Of a DNA stretch of 64,000 nucleotides, positions 36,117-43,288 are shown one piece after another. A program made the position numbers and the translations under genes. The DNA lies in NCBI RefSeq assembly GCF_007559335.1, contig NZ_VMBG01000001.1, forward strand, positions 248,001 to 312,000. The letters run 5' to 3'. The stretch is from Rariglobus hedericola. GTDB taxonomy: Bacteria; Verrucomicrobiota; Verrucomicrobiia; Opitutales; Opitutaceae. The notes under the pieces were generated by a model. That model was given only the letters and a program-made list of their open reading frames with translations. It was not told where the DNA came from and searched no databases. The number at the start of each line of letters is the position of its first letter. Positions within the stretch are counted from its first letter, which is position 1.

Positions 36117-36983
36117 ATGAAAATTTATTTGGACGGAAAATTTGTGGATGAGTCCGAAGCCAAAATTTCCGTGTTTGATCACGGCCTGCTTTACGGTGAC
36201 GGGGTGTTCGAGGGCATTCGTGTTTATCAGGGTAACGTTTTCCGTCTCGAGGAGCATCTGGAGCGTCTGGAATACTCGGCGAAAGCCCTGCTCCTGAAAA
36301 TGCCTTGGTCTCGCAAGGAGATTGCTGATGCGACGATGGAAACCTGCCGTCAGAATGAGCTGATGGATGGCTACATCCGTTTGGTTGTCACCCGTGGCGT
36401 GGGCGATCTCGGGCTCTCTCCCTGGCTGTGCCCAGTTCCGTCAATTTTTATCATCGCCGGCAAGATCGCCCTGTATCCCGCCGAACACTACACGACTGGT
36501 TTGTCGATCGTCACGGTGCCTACCCGCCGCATCAGTTCGGCGGCACTGCCTCCAGCCGTCAAGTCGCTCAACTATCTTAATAACATTCTCGCCAAGATGG
36601 AGGCCCGCCAGGCCGGCGCCCTGGAGGCGATCATGTTGAACGACCAAGGCTACGTGGCCGAGTGCACCGGCGATAATATCTTTATTGTTCACAAGGGCGA
36701 AATCATCACGCCGGCCGCGTCGCAGGGGGCACTCAAGGGCATCACGCGCTCGACGATCATGGCGATCGCGGAAGAGTTAAAGATTCCCCTCAAGGAGGCC
36801 GATATGACCCGCTACGATGTGTGGAATGCGGACGAATGTTTTCTTACGGGCACGGCGGCCGAGGTTATCCCGGTGGTAAAGCTTGACGGACGTGAAATTG
36901 GCAACGCCAAGCCGGGTCCGGTTACGCAGCGGATATTGGAGGCTTTTCGCCGTCGTGTGCTGGTCGAAGGGACCCGCCTTTGA
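36117..36983 (+). CDS. ilvE: Branched-chain amino acid aminotransferase (class IV)
   Basis: The 288-residue PLP enzyme has YLDGKFVDESEAKISVFDHG, YGDGVFEGIRVY, AVKSLNYLNNILAK with the likely PLP-binding Lys and ECTGDNIFIV, ending with the FLTGTAAEVIPV block. It transfers amino groups in valine, leucine and isoleucine synthesis; a D-amino-acid transaminase is a less likely alternative in this fold class. It stands apart from ilvN, leuC and leuD, which are elsewhere in the window. The 258 bases downstream, before mcsA, contain possible RNA structure. Confidence 0.88.
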   Translation: MKIYLDGKFVDESEAKISVFDHGLLYGDGVFEGIRVYQGNVFRLEEHLERLEYSAKALLLKMPWSRKEIADATMETCRQNELMDGYIRLVVTRGVGDLGLSPWLCPVPSIFIIAGKIALYPAEHYTTGLSIVTVPTRRISSAALPPAVKSLNYLNNILAKMEARQAGALEAIMLNDQGYVAECTGDNIFIVHKGEIITPAASQGALKGITRSTIMAIAEELKIPLKEADMTRYDVWNADECFLTGTAAEVIPVVKLDGREIGNAKPGPVTQRILEAFRRRVLVEGTRL

Positions 36984-37072
36984 CGTTGTTGCCTTTGGCA
37001 ATCCCCTGTCGTGTCCGCCGTCTGCAAGTGGGACATTGTCGCGCACTTGGTTTATTGGCACTGCGCCGTGTA

Positions 37073-37165
37073 GTCTCTTGCGTCCGGACGTCGATTTGTG
37101 TCGTTACAGAGGTGACGCCTTGCCTTGTCAGCCGACCACCGGTTGGCATGGTCGGTGCAAGAGAC
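37073..37165 (+). other. Possible structured RNA element upstream of mcsA
   Basis: GTCTCTTGC at 37073-37081 is the exact reverse complement of GCAAGAGAC at 37157-37165. Inside lie a 6-bp hairpin (CGTTAC/GTGACG with loop AGAG, 37102-37117) and a 7-bp hairpin (CCGACCA/TGGTCGG, 37132-37155), giving a plausible three-way junction. A 10-bp palindrome CGTCCGGACG follows the outer left arm. I match no known riboswitch consensus. Each piece could arise by chance in GC-rich DNA, so this is a hypothesis. Confidence 0.3.
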
Positions 37166-37241
37166 CTCCATCGCTTTGTCCAATCTCAAAAATTCTTGCG
37201 AGTGCAGTCGAAGTTTCCGCCTTACGTGATAACCTACTCCC

Positions 37242-37751
37242 ATGGCCAGCCCGCTTAAGTGTGATCTTTGCACCAATCCCGCCACTGTGCACCTCACGCA
37301 AATCGTGAATAACAAGGTGCATAAGGTGGACCTGTGTGAATCGTGCGCCCAAGCCAAGGGCGTGACGGATCCGAGCGGGTTCTCGCTGGCGGATCTTTTA
37401 CTCAAGGCTTCGCTCAATCCGGAAATTCCGGCCTCCGCAGTGCGTTGTGAGCAGTGCGGTTTCACTCAAGGGGATTTCAAGAAGCATGGGCGCTTTGGCT
37501 GCCCGCAGTGCTACTCCACTTTTTCCAGTATTGTTGAGCCCATGCTCGACAACATGCACAAGGGCACCGCTCACACGGGCAAAGTCCCTGAAAAAGCCCT
37601 TGAGCGTAAAACCCTTCACGACCGCCTCGGTGAACTCGAACTGAACCTTGAGGATGCGGTCAAAACTGAACGTTACGAGGACGCTGCCCGTTACCGCGAT
37701 GAAATCACCCAGCTCAAACAAACCGTCGAGCAACCGAAGCGTGCGCGCTAA
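37242..37751 (+). CDS. mcsA: McsA-like zinc-ribbon/UVR protein
   Basis: The 169-residue protein has four CxxC pairs (CDLC, CESC, CEQC, CPQC), a metal-binding pattern of McsA, and a C-terminal UVR motif (LEDAVKTERYEDAARYRDEI). McsA is the activator of the arginine kinase McsB and protects or presents substrates to ClpC. It lies 4 bases before mcsB. No ctsR homologue is present upstream; the preceding gene is ilvE. The ATG at 37242 has no Shine-Dalgarno. Confidence 0.92.
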   Translation: MASPLKCDLCTNPATVHLTQIVNNKVHKVDLCESCAQAKGVTDPSGFSLADLLLKASLNPEIPASAVRCEQCGFTQGDFKKHGRFGCPQCYSTFSSIVEPMLDNMHKGTAHTGKVPEKALERKTLHDRLGELELNLEDAVKTERYEDAARYRDEITQLKQTVEQPKRAR

Positions 37752-37755
37752 GCCC

Positions 37756-38841
37756 ATGACCATCACCTCTCTGTTGGCCACGCCTTCCGAGCTCACCGAT
37801 TCTTCGAGCAGCAAATCTGCGATCGTGCTGATGACGCGTATCCGTCTGGCGCGGAATCTTGCAGGCAAATCCTTTCCCGGCTGGGCTCGCGAGCCGCAAC
37901 GGGCCGAAATTTTGGAGGCCTGTCGCGAGGCTTTGATGGCGACCGCTCCGATGAAGCGGGGGGCTAGCGCTGCGGTTTCGGAGCTTACTGATCTTGAGAA
38001 ACAGATGTTGGTTGAACGTCATCTGATCTCTCGCGAACTCAGCGGCTCGGCCGCGGGTTCAGGCGTGGTGATCAACAAGGACCAGACGGTCTCGGTTATG
38101 ATCAACGAAGAGGACCACCTGCGCATTCAGGTGCTTCGCGCCGGATTCCAACTCAAGAAAGCTTGGAGCGTGATCAACGCCCTCGATTCCGAACTCGAAG
38201 ACCGCCTCGATTATGCGTTTTCGCCGCAGCTGGGCTATCTCACCGCGTGCCCGACCAATTTGGGCACCGGCCTAAGGGCGTCTGCCATGATGCACCTGCC
38301 TGCGCTCGTGATTGCCGGCCAGATGGAGAAAGTCGTTCGTGCCGTGAACCAACTCGGCATGGTGGTGCGCGGACTCTTCGGCGAGGGCTCCGATGCGAGT
38401 GGCAGCATTTTCCAGATTTCCAATCAGACGACCCTGGGCGAATCCGAGGAGGCGATCATCAAGCGCCTTGGCAGCGTCTTGGAATCCATCATCGAGCATG
38501 AGCTCAACGCCCGAGCAAAGTTGATGGAGACAGATTCCGCCAAGTTGTTTGATAAAATCGGACGCGCTTACGGAATCTTGCAGAATTGCCATCAACTGAC
38601 CTCGACCGAGGCGATGAACCTGCTGTCACTCCTGCGCCTGGGTATTGATCTGATGGTATTTCCGGAAGACTCCCGCGCCATTATCGACCGCCTGTTTATC
38701 GAGGCCCAACCGGGGCACATTCAGAGGACGGCGAAACACGACTTGGAATCTAATCAACGCGATATTCTTCGTGCCGAACGTCTGCGCACGGAGTTTGCTA
38801 CGTTTGCAAAACCCAATTTCACGATCAACGGTCAGAACTAA
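37756..38841 (+). CDS. mcsB: Protein arginine kinase McsB
   Basis: The 361-residue protein belongs to the phosphagen kinase fold: VLMTRIRLARNLAGKSFP, VMINEEDHLRIQVLRAGF and CPTNLGTGLRASAMMHLPAL. McsB phosphorylates arginines on protein substrates, marking them for degradation by ClpC-ClpP. The conserved NEEDH and CPTNLGTGLRAS blocks are intact, so activity is expected. Start set at ATG 37756, four bases after the mcsA stop. It precedes clpC by 18 bases. Confidence 0.93.
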   Translation: MTITSLLATPSELTDSSSSKSAIVLMTRIRLARNLAGKSFPGWAREPQRAEILEACREALMATAPMKRGASAAVSELTDLEKQMLVERHLISRELSGSAAGSGVVINKDQTVSVMINEEDHLRIQVLRAGFQLKKAWSVINALDSELEDRLDYAFSPQLGYLTACPTNLGTGLRASAMMHLPALVIAGQMEKVVRAVNQLGMVVRGLFGEGSDASGSIFQISNQTTLGESEEAIIKRLGSVLESIIEHELNARAKLMETDSAKLFDKIGRAYGILQNCHQLTSTEAMNLLSLLRLGIDLMVFPEDSRAIIDRLFIEAQPGHIQRTAKHDLESNQRDILRAERLRTEFATFAKPNFTINGQN

Positions 38842-38859
38842 CCCATATAAACCACGCCT

Positions 38860-41397
38860 ATGGAACCGATGAACAATTTCACCCCCCGCGCCCAGCAAGT
38901 GCTGGCGCTGGCTCGCAAGGAAGCCGATCGCTTCCATCACAACTACGTCGGCACCGAGCACATCCTTCTGGGATTGATCAAGCTCGGACAAGGCGTCGCC
39001 GTGAGCGTTCTCCAGAAGATGGGCCTCGATCTTGAGACCGTCCGCAACGCTGTCGAAAAACAGGTGGGCACCGGTCAGGAAACCAAGACGCAGGGCAGCA
39101 TTCCTTACACGCCTCGCGTGAAAAAGGTCCTCGCCCTCGCAGGCAAGGAAGCCAAGGCGCTCAACCATTCTTACGTCGGCACCGAGCACATTCTGCTCGG
39201 TCTTCTCCGTGAGGGCGAGGGCGTCGCCGCCCGCGTGCTCAAGTCTCTCGACATCGACATCGAGCGCACCCGCAACGAAATCCTCCGCGAACTCGATCCG
39301 CAGTTCTCTGGCGGCGAAGGCGGCACTCCTGGTGGCGGTGAAGAAGCGTCTGCCGGCGGTTCGCAGCGCGGCTCCGGTGACGAGGGCGGCGGCAACAAAA
39401 AGGAAGTGAAGACCCCGGCCCTCAAGGCCTTTGGTCGCGACCTCACGGAACTCGCCCGCAAGGGTGAACTGGACCCCGTCGTCGGTCGTAAAAACGAGAT
39501 CCGTCGCGTCATTCAGATTCTCTGCCGCCGCACCAAGAACAATCCCGTCCTCATCGGTGAAGCCGGTGTGGGTAAAACGGCGATCGCCGAAGGTCTCGCC
39601 CAAGAGATCGCCGGTGGCCTCGTGCCTGAAATCCTCTTGGATAAAAAGATCATCACGCTCGATCTTGCGCTCATGGTTGCCGGCACCAAATACCGCGGCC
39701 AGTTCGAAGAGCGCATCAAGGCCGTGATGGACGAGGTCAAACGCGCGAAGAACGTCATCATCTTCATTGATGAGATGCACACCATCGTTGGCGCCGGCGC
39801 CGCCGAAGGTGCCATGGATGCGTCCAATATCTTCAAGCCCGCACTCAGCCGCGGCGAACTCCAGTGCATCGGTGCGACCACTCTCAACGAATACCGCAAG
39901 TATATCGAAAAGGACTCCGCCCTCGATCGCCGCTTCCAGTCCGTGAAGGTCGAGCCGCCGTCCGTTGAGGACACGATCACCATCCTGAAGGGTATTCGCT
40001 CGAAGTATGAGGATCACCACAAGGCCATCTTCACTGACAAGTCGCTGGAGATCGCGACGAAGCTTTCTGATCGCTACATCACCGGACGTTTCCTGCCCGA
40101 CAAGGCCATCGATGTGATGGACGAGGCCGGCTCGCGCGCCCGTATCTCTTCTCTCAGCCGCCCGACCGACATCGAGGACCTTTCCAAGGAAATCGAGCAG
40201 GTCTGCGCGCAAAAAGAAGAGGCCATCGCCAAGCAGCACTTTGAGGAAGCGGCCAAATATCGTGACACCGAGAAGCAGCTCCGCGCGAAGCAGGAGCAAG
40301 CCACCGAGGCTTGGAAGAAAGCCCGCGACGAGCAGCGCATCACCATCGACGAGGATCTGATGATGCAGGTCGTCGCCGACTGGACCGGCATTCCGCTCTC
40401 GCGCATGGAAAAGAAGGAGAGCGAAAAACTCCTGGGCCTCGAAAAGGAAATCCAGCGCACCGTCATCGGTCAGGATCTCGCGGCGAGCGCCATCGCCCGC
40501 GCTCTGCGTCGTTCCCGCGCCGACCTTAAAGATCCGCGCCGTCCGATCGGTTCGTTCCTGTTCGTTGGCCCCACGGGCGTCGGCAAGACCGAGACCGCCA
40601 AGCAGCTCGCGATGCAGATGTTTGGCAACCAAGAGGCGCTCATTCAGATCGATATGAGCGAATACATGGAGAAGTTCGCTGTCTCCCGCATGGTCGGCTC
40701 GCCTCCCGGCTACGTCGGCTATGACGAAGGTGGCCAGCTTACCGAAGCCGTGCGTCGCAAGCCCTACGCTGTGATCCTTTTCGATGAAATCGAAAAGGCC
40801 CACCCGGACGTGTTGCAGATCCTGCTGCAAATTCTCGAAGACGGACGCCTGACCGACTCGCTTGGTCGCGTGGTCGATTTCCGAAACACGATCATCATCA
40901 TGACCTCGAACGTCGGTGCGCAGCTCTTGATGCGTCAGACCTCGATGGGCTTTGCAGCTGCGGCTTCGAGCTTCAGTGACGCCGAAAAGATGCGTGAGAA
41001 GGTCCTGGAAGAGGCCAAGAAGGTCTTCAAGCCCGAGTTCCTCAATCGCATCTCCGACATCGTGTTCTTCCGCCCGCTGGAGAAGACCGATCTCGTCAAA
41101 ATCGTGGACCTCGAAGTCACCAAGTTCGCGAAGCGTCTCGTGGAACGCAAAATCGAGCTCGAGTTCACCGACGAGGCCAAGCTGCTCCTCATCGACAAGG
41201 GCTACGACGAAAAATACGGCGCGCGTCCGCTGCGCCGTGCCGTCGAGCACTTCCTCGAAGATCCGCTGGCCGAAGCCATCCTGCGCGGCGATGTGAAGGA
41301 CGGCGAAGTCATCTTGGTGACCCGTGATGGCGAAAAACTAGCCTTCACGCAAAAGACGCCCGTCGAGCCTTCACCTGATACCAACGTCGCTTCCTGA
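38860..41397 (+). CDS. clpC: AAA+ chaperone ClpC
   Basis: The 845-residue Clp/Hsp100 unfoldase has two N-terminal Clp repeats ([36 protein letters not shown]) with [12 protein letters not shown] twice, Walker A1 [13 protein letters not shown], a UVR motif in the middle domain ([19 protein letters not shown]), Walker A2 [13 protein letters not shown] and Walker B2 [11 protein letters not shown]. The SMGF tripeptide in the small domain is a candidate ClpP-docking loop. It unfolds substrates for ClpP, including arginine-phosphorylated ones. The UVR motif recurs in McsA, consistent with their interaction. Confidence 0.96.
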
Positions 41398-41416
41398 TCG
41401 AACGCAACTTAGGTTC

Positions 41417-41454
41417 AACGCCTCGCAACCATTACGGCGGCGAGGCGTTTTTTT
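41417..41454 (+). terminator. Intrinsic terminator after clpC
   Basis: CAACGCCTCGC and GCGAGGCGTT form a long stem across a 13-base loop, followed by TTTTTTTGTG. It closes the mcsA-mcsB-clpC operon. Confidence 0.88.
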
Positions 41455-41470
41455 GTGTATTGTCTTCGCC

Positions 41471-43288
41471 GTGCGCGTGTTCACTCGTCTTCCCGTGTCT
41501 CGATTCTGCCTGCGATTGATCTGGTGGCTTTGTCTGGTTGCGTGCGTCGCACAAGGCCGGGCCGCGCTGAACACGGATCTGCCGGACGATTGGTTCACGC
41601 GTGCGCCCACGCCCGAGCGGCTCAAAGCCGTGCAATCCAGCGCAGTGTCTTCCGGCTGGAGCGCGGTTTCAAACCGGCTGTTTGCAGGCGCGATTCGCGC
41701 GTATGAACTTCGACAGGAAGATGCGGCCGCAGCGTGGTATCACGTCGCGCGGTGGTGCGACGTGTTTGCCCAATCCCAGTCCAAATCGGGACGGCAATGG
41801 CTGGAAGCGCTCAACCAGGTTGGCGGGATTCACGGTAATATTGATCAGGTAAAAATATTCTCGCTGCCGGATGAAGAGATCGCGCAGTTGCTGTCGGCTG
41901 AGACCCGCGGGTGGCTTCTGGGAGACAAGGCGTTTTCGGAGTCATTTTTTAATCTGCTCACGCCTTATGATTGTCTGCCGCAGGTGATGCGAATCGTGCA
42001 GACGCTCCGGGATTCGGACGCGCGTTTGTTTTCTGAATACAGCCAGCTGGCGATTGCGATTGCCTTGGTTTACGACGAATCCCCGCCGTCGTATTGGCCT
42101 CACTGGCAGGTATCCGAAAAGACGTTACCGCGGCGTTTGCCGGCTCCGCTGGATGCTTTCAAGTTTTTGGTGGATGCGGACCAACGGCGGGTGACGTTAC
42201 AAAAACTGGGACAGTTGTCCGCCGGCGAATTGAAGTTCGTGGTCGATCTGGCCGCACCGGCAACCGAGCTTGCCTGGGCGCAACGCACGGTGAAGTTCCC
42301 TCTGGCTGACTTGGTTAAAAGCTATGAATCCGTTCGTTATCGGCATGACCGGATCGACGCGCGCGAATACGTTTGGACCGGTGCCAGCTATGATCTGGAG
42401 GAAATCCGTCGTGAGGGCGGAATTTGCGTGGATCAAGCTTACTACGCGACACAGGCGGGCAAGGCGAGGGGAGTGCCGACGCTGTTGTTTTCAGGCGCAG
42501 GGCAGGACGGACGGCACGCGTGGTTTGGCTATCTAGGAATAGGCCGTCAATGGGTGCTCGATGCCGGGCGTTACGCGGAGCAGCGATATGTGACCGGGGT
42601 CGCGTATGATCCGCAGACATGGCTGGAACTTTCGGATCATGAACTGGGGTTTTTGAGCGAGGGATTTCGACGGCTGTCGCCCTATCGCCAATCGTGGCAG
42701 CATCAGGTTTTCGCGGAACTCTATCTGCGCATGCACAAACCGGCCGCAGCTGCCGTGGCTGCACGCAAAGCGGTCAATTATGAGCGCCGAAATCTGGCGG
42801 CTTGGGATCTGTTGCTGGATGCCAGCGAAGGCGCGCCGGCACGCACGCGCGAGGGCTTGTTGATCGAAGCGGCCCAGGCGATGCAGCGTTATCCCGATCT
42901 CAATGGTCGTTATGTCCGCGCGCTGGTGGCGAGCTTGCGCGAACGCGGTGAAATCAGTGCGGCGGATTTGGAAGAGCGGACTTTGCTTCGTCGCAGTCGT
43001 GGCGGCGGCCGCACCGACATGGGGGTTGATCAGGCGGTCGCGGTCATGGCCAAATCATCGCCGGCTGATGACACGCGCACCTACCGTCAGGTGCTGCAAC
43101 AATACGGACGAGGCGCCGGTGTGGATTTTTATGACCGCGTAACCGAACCCTTCGTTGCAAAGTTGATCACCGAAGAACGGAAGGTCGAAGCCGCGCAGAT
43201 TATCGTGCAGACCCGTGCGGTGTTGAAACCGGATGCGGGCAGTCAGCTTGATCTCGAAATGAAAGATCTCGCCGACACGACCAAGTGA
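41471..43288 (+). CDS. Exported protein with transglutaminase-like domain
   Basis: A protein of about 605 residues. A signal-peptide-like N-terminus (LIWWLCLVACVAQGRAALN) precedes a helical region. The centre has a transglutaminase-like triad pattern: Cys in EGGICVDQAYYAT, His in QDGRHAWFGYL and Asp in QWVLDAGRYAE. Helical TPR-like material fills the C-terminal third (HKPAAAAVAARKAVNYERRN). Function is unknown; proteins with this fold cleave peptides or cross-link amides. Start is uncertain because it lies just past the terminator; GTG 41471 or 41477 are the options, and TTG 41453 is less likely. Confidence 0.75.
   Translation: MRVFTRLPVSRFCLRLIWWLCLVACVAQGRAALNTDLPDDWFTRAPTPERLKAVQSSAVSSGWSAVSNRLFAGAIRAYELRQEDAAAAWYHVARWCDVFAQSQSKSGRQWLEALNQVGGIHGNIDQVKIFSLPDEEIAQLLSAETRGWLLGDKAFSESFFNLLTPYDCLPQVMRIVQTLRDSDARLFSEYSQLAIAIALVYDESPPSYWPHWQVSEKTLPRRLPAPLDAFKFLVDADQRRVTLQKLGQLSAGELKFVVDLAAPATELAWAQRTVKFPLADLVKSYESVRYRHDRIDAREYVWTGASYDLEEIRREGGICVDQAYYATQAGKARGVPTLLFSGAGQDGRHAWFGYLGIGRQWVLDAGRYAEQRYVTGVAYDPQTWLELSDHELGFLSEGFRRLSPYRQSWQHQVFAELYLRMHKPAAAAVAARKAVNYERRNLAAWDLLLDASEGAPARTREGLLIEAAQAMQRYPDLNGRYVRALVASLRERGEISAADLEERTLLRRSRGGGRTDMGVDQAVAVMAKSSPADDTRTYRQVLQQYGRGAGVDFYDRVTEPFVAKLITEERKVEAAQIIVQTRAVLKPDAGSQLDLEMKDLADTTK

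Follow-up and report, generated by a model that had tools for sequence, protein, structure and literature searches.

The mcsA-mcsB-clpC locus and its gene products

The window considered here, a stretch of 64,000 nucleotides from Rariglobus hedericola (Verrucomicrobiota), carries the adjacent and intact genes mcsA, mcsB, and clpC (Table 1). The contig that contains it is 2.4 Mb long, and the genome, with a completeness of 99.99%, measures 4.1 Mb. The intergenic gaps measure 4 bases (mcsA/mcsB) and 18 bases (mcsB/clpC), the start of mcsB being placed at the ATG at position 37756 because a longer open reading frame (ORF) from position 37648 overlaps mcsA. An earlier note on this DNA read the three genes as a complete system for arginine phosphorylation and degradation without the repressor CtsR and considered it remarkable outside the Firmicutes. 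The adjacency of the genes and their family motifs are borne out by Pfam matches and by near full-length matches to solved structures of McsB, McsA, and ClpC, which evidently place the gene identities far beyond chance.

Table 1. Genes and other features at the locus (positions within the window)
Feature	Position	Strand	Description
mcsA	37242-37751	+	169 amino acids; putative activator of McsB; eight Cys in two zinc fingers, HTGKVP at residue 111, UVR
mcsB	37756-38841	+	361 amino acids; predicted protein-arginine kinase; 11 catalytic residues and phosphoarginine site R335 D336 (and R339)
clpC	38860-41397	+	845 amino acids; Hsp100 unfoldase; N domain (E33, E109), UVR M-domain, MGF ClpP loop
Promoter-like element TTGTCA-N16-CATGGT, with TGG ahead of CATGGT and TGCA after	37125-37159	+	5' of mcsA; conserved within the family
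Branched-chain aminotransferase gene (ilvE type)	36117-36983	+	Upstream neighbor, outside the McsA-McsB-ClpC system

McsB matches the Pfam family ATP-gua_Ptrans (PF00217) with 232.1 bits (cut-off, 22.4) and exceeds the cut-off of the NCBIfam model NF002194, "protein arginine kinase" (407 versus 385 bits). Its best solved-structure matches are McsB proteins (2e-85), aligned over nearly the full length. All 11 catalytic residues tested are kept (R28, R30, N117, E118, E119, D120, R123, C165, R174, R205, and E210), with labels taken from phosphagen kinases and columns from the alignment. R335 and D336 align with R337 and D338 of Bacillus subtilis McsB, the phosphoarginine receptor site according to an excerpt of PMC8370763.

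McsA contains a UVR domain (35.5 bits; Pfam cut-off, 21.5) and all eight zinc-finger cysteines, and its best solved-structure match is 8wtb_B (1.7e-25, residues 7 to 163). ClpC shows the Pfam domains Clp_N, AAA, ClpB_D2-small, and UVR, with two AAA domains, and matches solved ClpC at 2e-290 over nearly its entire length. The similar UVR motifs pointed out earlier, AARYRDE at residue 148 of McsA and AAKYRDT at residue 464 of ClpC, both fall inside Pfam UVR domains; a UVR domain in McsA as well as in ClpC is normal for both families. The pocket glutamates of ClpC, Glu32 and Glu106 in the section consulted of PMC12583610, correspond to E33 and E109.

The genome encodes ClpP outside the operon, with two strong matches and one weak match. 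Two low-molecular-weight phosphatases are present. One (L006) is nearest to arsenate reductase, below the cut-off. The other (L005, C4:123125-123556), the sole YwlE-like phosphatase detected, lies next to a gene that by visual inspection is glyA, and its best matches are to solved YwlE (5e-24). The completeness claimed for the system holds for the three genes and for ClpP, whereas the arginine phosphatase, or eraser, of this genome is uncertain.

Taken together, the locus very probably represents a McsA-McsB-ClpC system of the canonical type, passed down within the phylum, that marks damaged proteins with phosphoarginine for degradation by ClpC-ClpP, as the conserved residues suggest and as the earlier note had proposed. 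McsA would activate McsB, which would phosphorylate damaged proteins on arginine; the phosphoarginine would be bound by the N domain of ClpC, and ClpC would pass the protein into ClpP. Several points weigh against this reading. McsB stays below the cut-off in four of five equivalog models, namely, NF053707 (390 versus 500 bits) and three other PRK01059 models, and McsA reaches 126.6 bits against 210 for NF053706, which is still its best family. The pocket glutamates had to be discarded as proof of phosphoarginine recognition, being kept in 19/19 ClpC proteins encoded beside degenerate McsB (see below). Kinase activity, marking, and degradation are deduced from the residues. Finally, the P loop of L005 (CTANICRS) carries Ile at position X5, where arginine phosphatases such as YwlE/PtpB carry Thr; in the portion of PMC8001253 available, Thr at X5 favors phosphoarginine and Ile phosphotyrosine. 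Among 30 loci of YwlE-like phosphatases (L005 and 29 loci, L041 to L069, from a family search of 31 genomes), 24 have a CT[AG]N-type P loop (Ile at the specificity position in 20, Thr in 3, and Val in 1), and six read C[MLW]GNICRS.

Control of the operon

The three genes, their order, and the catalytic, activator, and pocket residues are shared with the ctsR-mcsA-mcsB-clpC operon of B. subtilis and other Bacillota, but the locus in the window is without CtsR. The absence of ctsR reported earlier extends to the whole genome, with no match at an E value of ≤1. The search found CtsR in Lactococcus, and the family model found it in three Bacillota loci. A caution for the absences is that the B. 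subtilis control genome, from a species known to carry both CtsR and McsB-type PF00217, matched neither, perhaps because that stretch is masked. HrcA also gave no match in the genome, and the best match to RpoH scored 172.5 bits, well short of the cut-off (323), leaving no clear sigma-32. The operon is thus evidently controlled without CtsR. The different control postulated for it agrees with the lack of detectable CtsR and HrcA.

The operon would be transcribed from its own promoter 5' of mcsA. The conserved upstream element, whose TGGCA starts 98 bases before mcsA, fits either an extended -10 sigma-70 promoter or a sigma-54 promoter, and the sigma-70 reading appears slightly favored. Sigma-54 dependence via a TGGCAY-N6-TGCA element is a serious possibility with somewhat less than even chances. 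The GG-N10-GC element occurs in the window and in seven of eight relatives of family f2 (all except L102), in these relatives as TGGCAC (once GGGCAC), N6, TGC, and RpoN is present in the genome. When each upstream region was scored against 100 first-order resamplings, a best sigma-54 score with a P value of ≤0.05 was obtained in 14/20 regions from the same family and 9/20 from the same order. In Chlamydia, the genes listed as lowered when sigma-28 and sigma-54 are knocked down together include mcsA and mcsB, as far as the excerpt of PMC10597470 goes. Such scores are scarce beyond the order, however (2/15 in the same class, 0/20 in other classes, 0/17 in pseudokinase lineages, and 3/39 in named records), the genome shows no enrichment of the pattern (25 matches versus 37 for the reversed control), and the window's single match has no significance by itself, since 24/100 shuffles have one.

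The arrangement of the boxes also speaks against sigma-54. In 21 family sites, chosen for containing CTTGC, the GC of the sigma-54 element is kept 17 times, but a TTGC box lies 14 to 15 bases 5' of TGGCA in 20 sites, and the sixth place of CATNNT is T in 19, both as expected of an extended -10 sigma-70 promoter. The version in the window has TTGTCA 16 bases 5' of CATGGT. Ten sites lie 31 to 38 bases 5' of mcsA, where a sigma-54 promoter would leave hardly any leader and a sigma-70 promoter leaves room. A promoter scan of positions 36900 to 41700 on both strands returned no sigma-70-like site, and the five terminator-like sites in this region equal the number in shuffles. A search of 1.24 Mb of the genome for the two-box element at the family spacing gave no match and also missed the window's own, differently spaced CTTGC box; simple motifs did not pick up groEL or dnaK in the same 1.24 Mb.

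Distribution and ancestry in Verrucomicrobiota

PF00217 was found in 364 of 387 sampled Verrucomicrobiota genomes and in 189 of 197 genera. No true CtsR was found in the 387 genomes; the sole match (G049, L036) is an AraC-type regulator and was rejected as a false positive. Gene order was compared in 80 genomes picked among the best-scoring PF00217 matches, in some of which the contig ends early: mcsA adjoins mcsB in 75, clpC follows in 66, and both hold in 61. The 11 catalytic residues are complete in 80/80 of these strong-scoring McsB proteins, a sign that catalysis is under selection in them. The McsA-McsB-ClpC set is standard in the phylum and ordinary in R. hedericola.

The view that the system is remarkable outside the Firmicutes is also not supported in view of the literature, in which McsB genes from other phyla, including Verrucomicrobiota itself, are already published. 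In the same phylum, mcsB and clpA homologues of Methylacidiphilum with neighboring locus tags (Minf_0242-0241) are known from expression, rising on formic acid in the part available of PMC8024496. Chlamydia trachomatis, which shares the Planctomycetes-Verrucomicrobia-Chlamydiae superphylum with the window, has McsA/McsB and a ClpC that, together with ClpP1P2, degrades casein if it is phosphorylated on arginine but leaves plain casein undegraded; its mcsAB genes lie apart from clpC, in contrast to the single cluster in the window (PMC10128030, excerpt).

Querying named genomes with ClpC of Akkermansia returned at least 80 loci. Among the matches listed (80 named loci), McsB exceeds 80 bits in 43, and 40 of these keep all 11 catalytic residues; the other three are L200, L201, and L233. 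McsB proteins with all 11 residues also occur, among the matches listed, in Gemmatimonadota and anammox Planctomycetota (Kuenenia and Jettenia). CtsR was detected beside the operon in just three Bacillota loci among 180 loci compared. Clusters of mcsA-mcsB-clpC in which CtsR was not found are seen in anammox Planctomycetota and Gemmatimonadota (L243, L252, L259, L264, L270, L274, and L278). The phosphoarginine site of McsB varies in these groups: the Arg is absent in 5/5 Gemmatimonadota proteins and the Asp also in three, and Asn replaces the Asp in two anammox proteins.

In an unrooted McsB tree of 46 rows, including Bacillota, Gemmatimonadota, and Planctomycetota, the 35 verrucomicrobial rows (counting one Kiritimatiellota and one unnamed record) form one side of a branch with a support of 90 in the Shimodaira-Hasegawa-like approximate likelihood ratio test. 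This one-sided branch suggests inheritance within the phylum rather than a recent gain from Bacillota. Horizontal transfer from Bacillota is accordingly not supported, with the restriction that the tree is unrooted and the branch support only 90. These data support arginine-phosphate proteostasis as a general trait of one Gram-negative phylum, apparently controlled there without CtsR.

Degenerate McsB proteins

While the operon in the window is largely known in kind, the new lead is a probable repeated conversion of McsB to a pseudokinase. Of the 364 PF00217 matches, 69 are weak, that is, weaker than 1e-45 as read from the match table. Thirty of these 69 genomes were examined, 11 of them from the genus Akkermansia, and each has that single PF00217 match. 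All 30 proteins have lost catalytic residues, with 0 to 6 of 11 remaining (5 to 11 lost), a contrast with the strong set that is partly by construction, since both sets were chosen by score. The frame is unbroken over the match in 29, whereas that of G084 contains a TAG. A neighboring mcsA can be detected for 27 of the 30, and clpC is often adjacent too. The degenerate copies (L150 to L179, L180 to L199, L200, L201, and L233) mostly have a full frame beside mcsA.

The 30 genomes span ten family codes of the phylum. The match table shows weak as well as strong copies in each of the families f3, f10, f22, f27, f36, f39, f40, and f77, which were partly examined and of which f22 is borderline. Genus g37 has 11 weak copies among 23; it is taken as Akkermansia, given that one member (L184) equals Akkermansia sp. 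SUG1064 (L201) over the 600 bases compared. A thinned ClpC tree that contains long branches and comprises 66 rows, of which 47 are canonical and 19 degenerate, requires four label changes, at least three of them forced by strongly supported branches. The Akkermansia copy L150/L180 (G093) is intermediate, with Arg replaced by Lys at three catalytic places, Glu/Asp swaps, and 6/11 residues kept, and looks as if it were drifting from kinase toward pseudokinase.

The ratio of nonsynonymous to synonymous substitution rates (dN/dS) is 0.16 to 0.64 in 21 degenerate pairs (four genera, >42% identity) versus 0.12 in one canonical pair, many values being rough owing to synonymous distances above 1. Comparable degenerate pairs are under purifying selection, and the higher dN/dS values show relaxed constraint. 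The lowest-scoring named copy (L200, from an uncultured Akkermansia, 3/11 residues) gave a predicted model with a predicted local distance difference test score of 85 and a predicted template modeling (TM) score of 0.86, whose ten best structural matches are solved McsB (TM score, 0.67 to 0.84).

The neighboring McsA differs as well. Its HxG[KR]xP pattern is present in 74/75 McsA proteins beside canonical McsB versus 2/27 beside degenerate McsB, and the HxGKxP segment falls in the McsA fragment solved with Staphylococcus aureus McsB (8gqd); all eight cysteines are kept in 17/17 aligned McsA proteins beside degenerate McsB. A strict coupling of the two proteins is argued against by the absence of the pattern in 5/5 Gemmatimonadota McsA proteins and in one verrucomicrobial McsA (L210), the McsB being canonical (11 residues in the Gemmatimonadota) in each case. 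McsB has thus probably become a pseudokinase several times in Verrucomicrobiota, including inside Akkermansia, and would serve there, with its fold and operon place kept, as an adaptor or scaffold for ClpC that has no kinase activity, while McsA mostly loses HxGKxP and keeps both fingers and the UVR domain. No paper on McsB as a pseudokinase in this sense, or on McsB with Akkermansia, was found in the openly licensed literature.

The retention of McsB beside mcsA, and often clpC, after the loss of catalytic residues invites the same explanation for the window, in which McsB and McsA would act mainly as a noncatalytic ClpC adaptor; this is improbable for a protein that keeps every tested catalytic residue, as do 80/80 strong-scoring copies. 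That McsB is a kinase of free arginine is more improbable still: the catalytic domain is shared with phosphagen kinases, and matches to taurocyamine and arginine kinases of animals reach 2e-45 at best, but protein-arginine kinases are best by far (2e-85), their match extends into the C-terminal part, where the phosphoarginine-binding R/D lie, and McsB is encoded with McsA and ClpC. With a canonical kinase as the preferred reading for the window, the pseudokinase series offers a natural experiment, in which the same operon contains an intact arginine kinase in some related lineages but not in others; this could disentangle what McsB does as a kinase from a role as an adaptor toward ClpC.

Among the other features of the window, an Rfam scan yielded a tRNA alone. 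The upstream neighbor has counterparts elsewhere: 71 ORFs across the 180 loci match branched-chain aminotransferase, many of them, judged by position, just 5' of mcsA.

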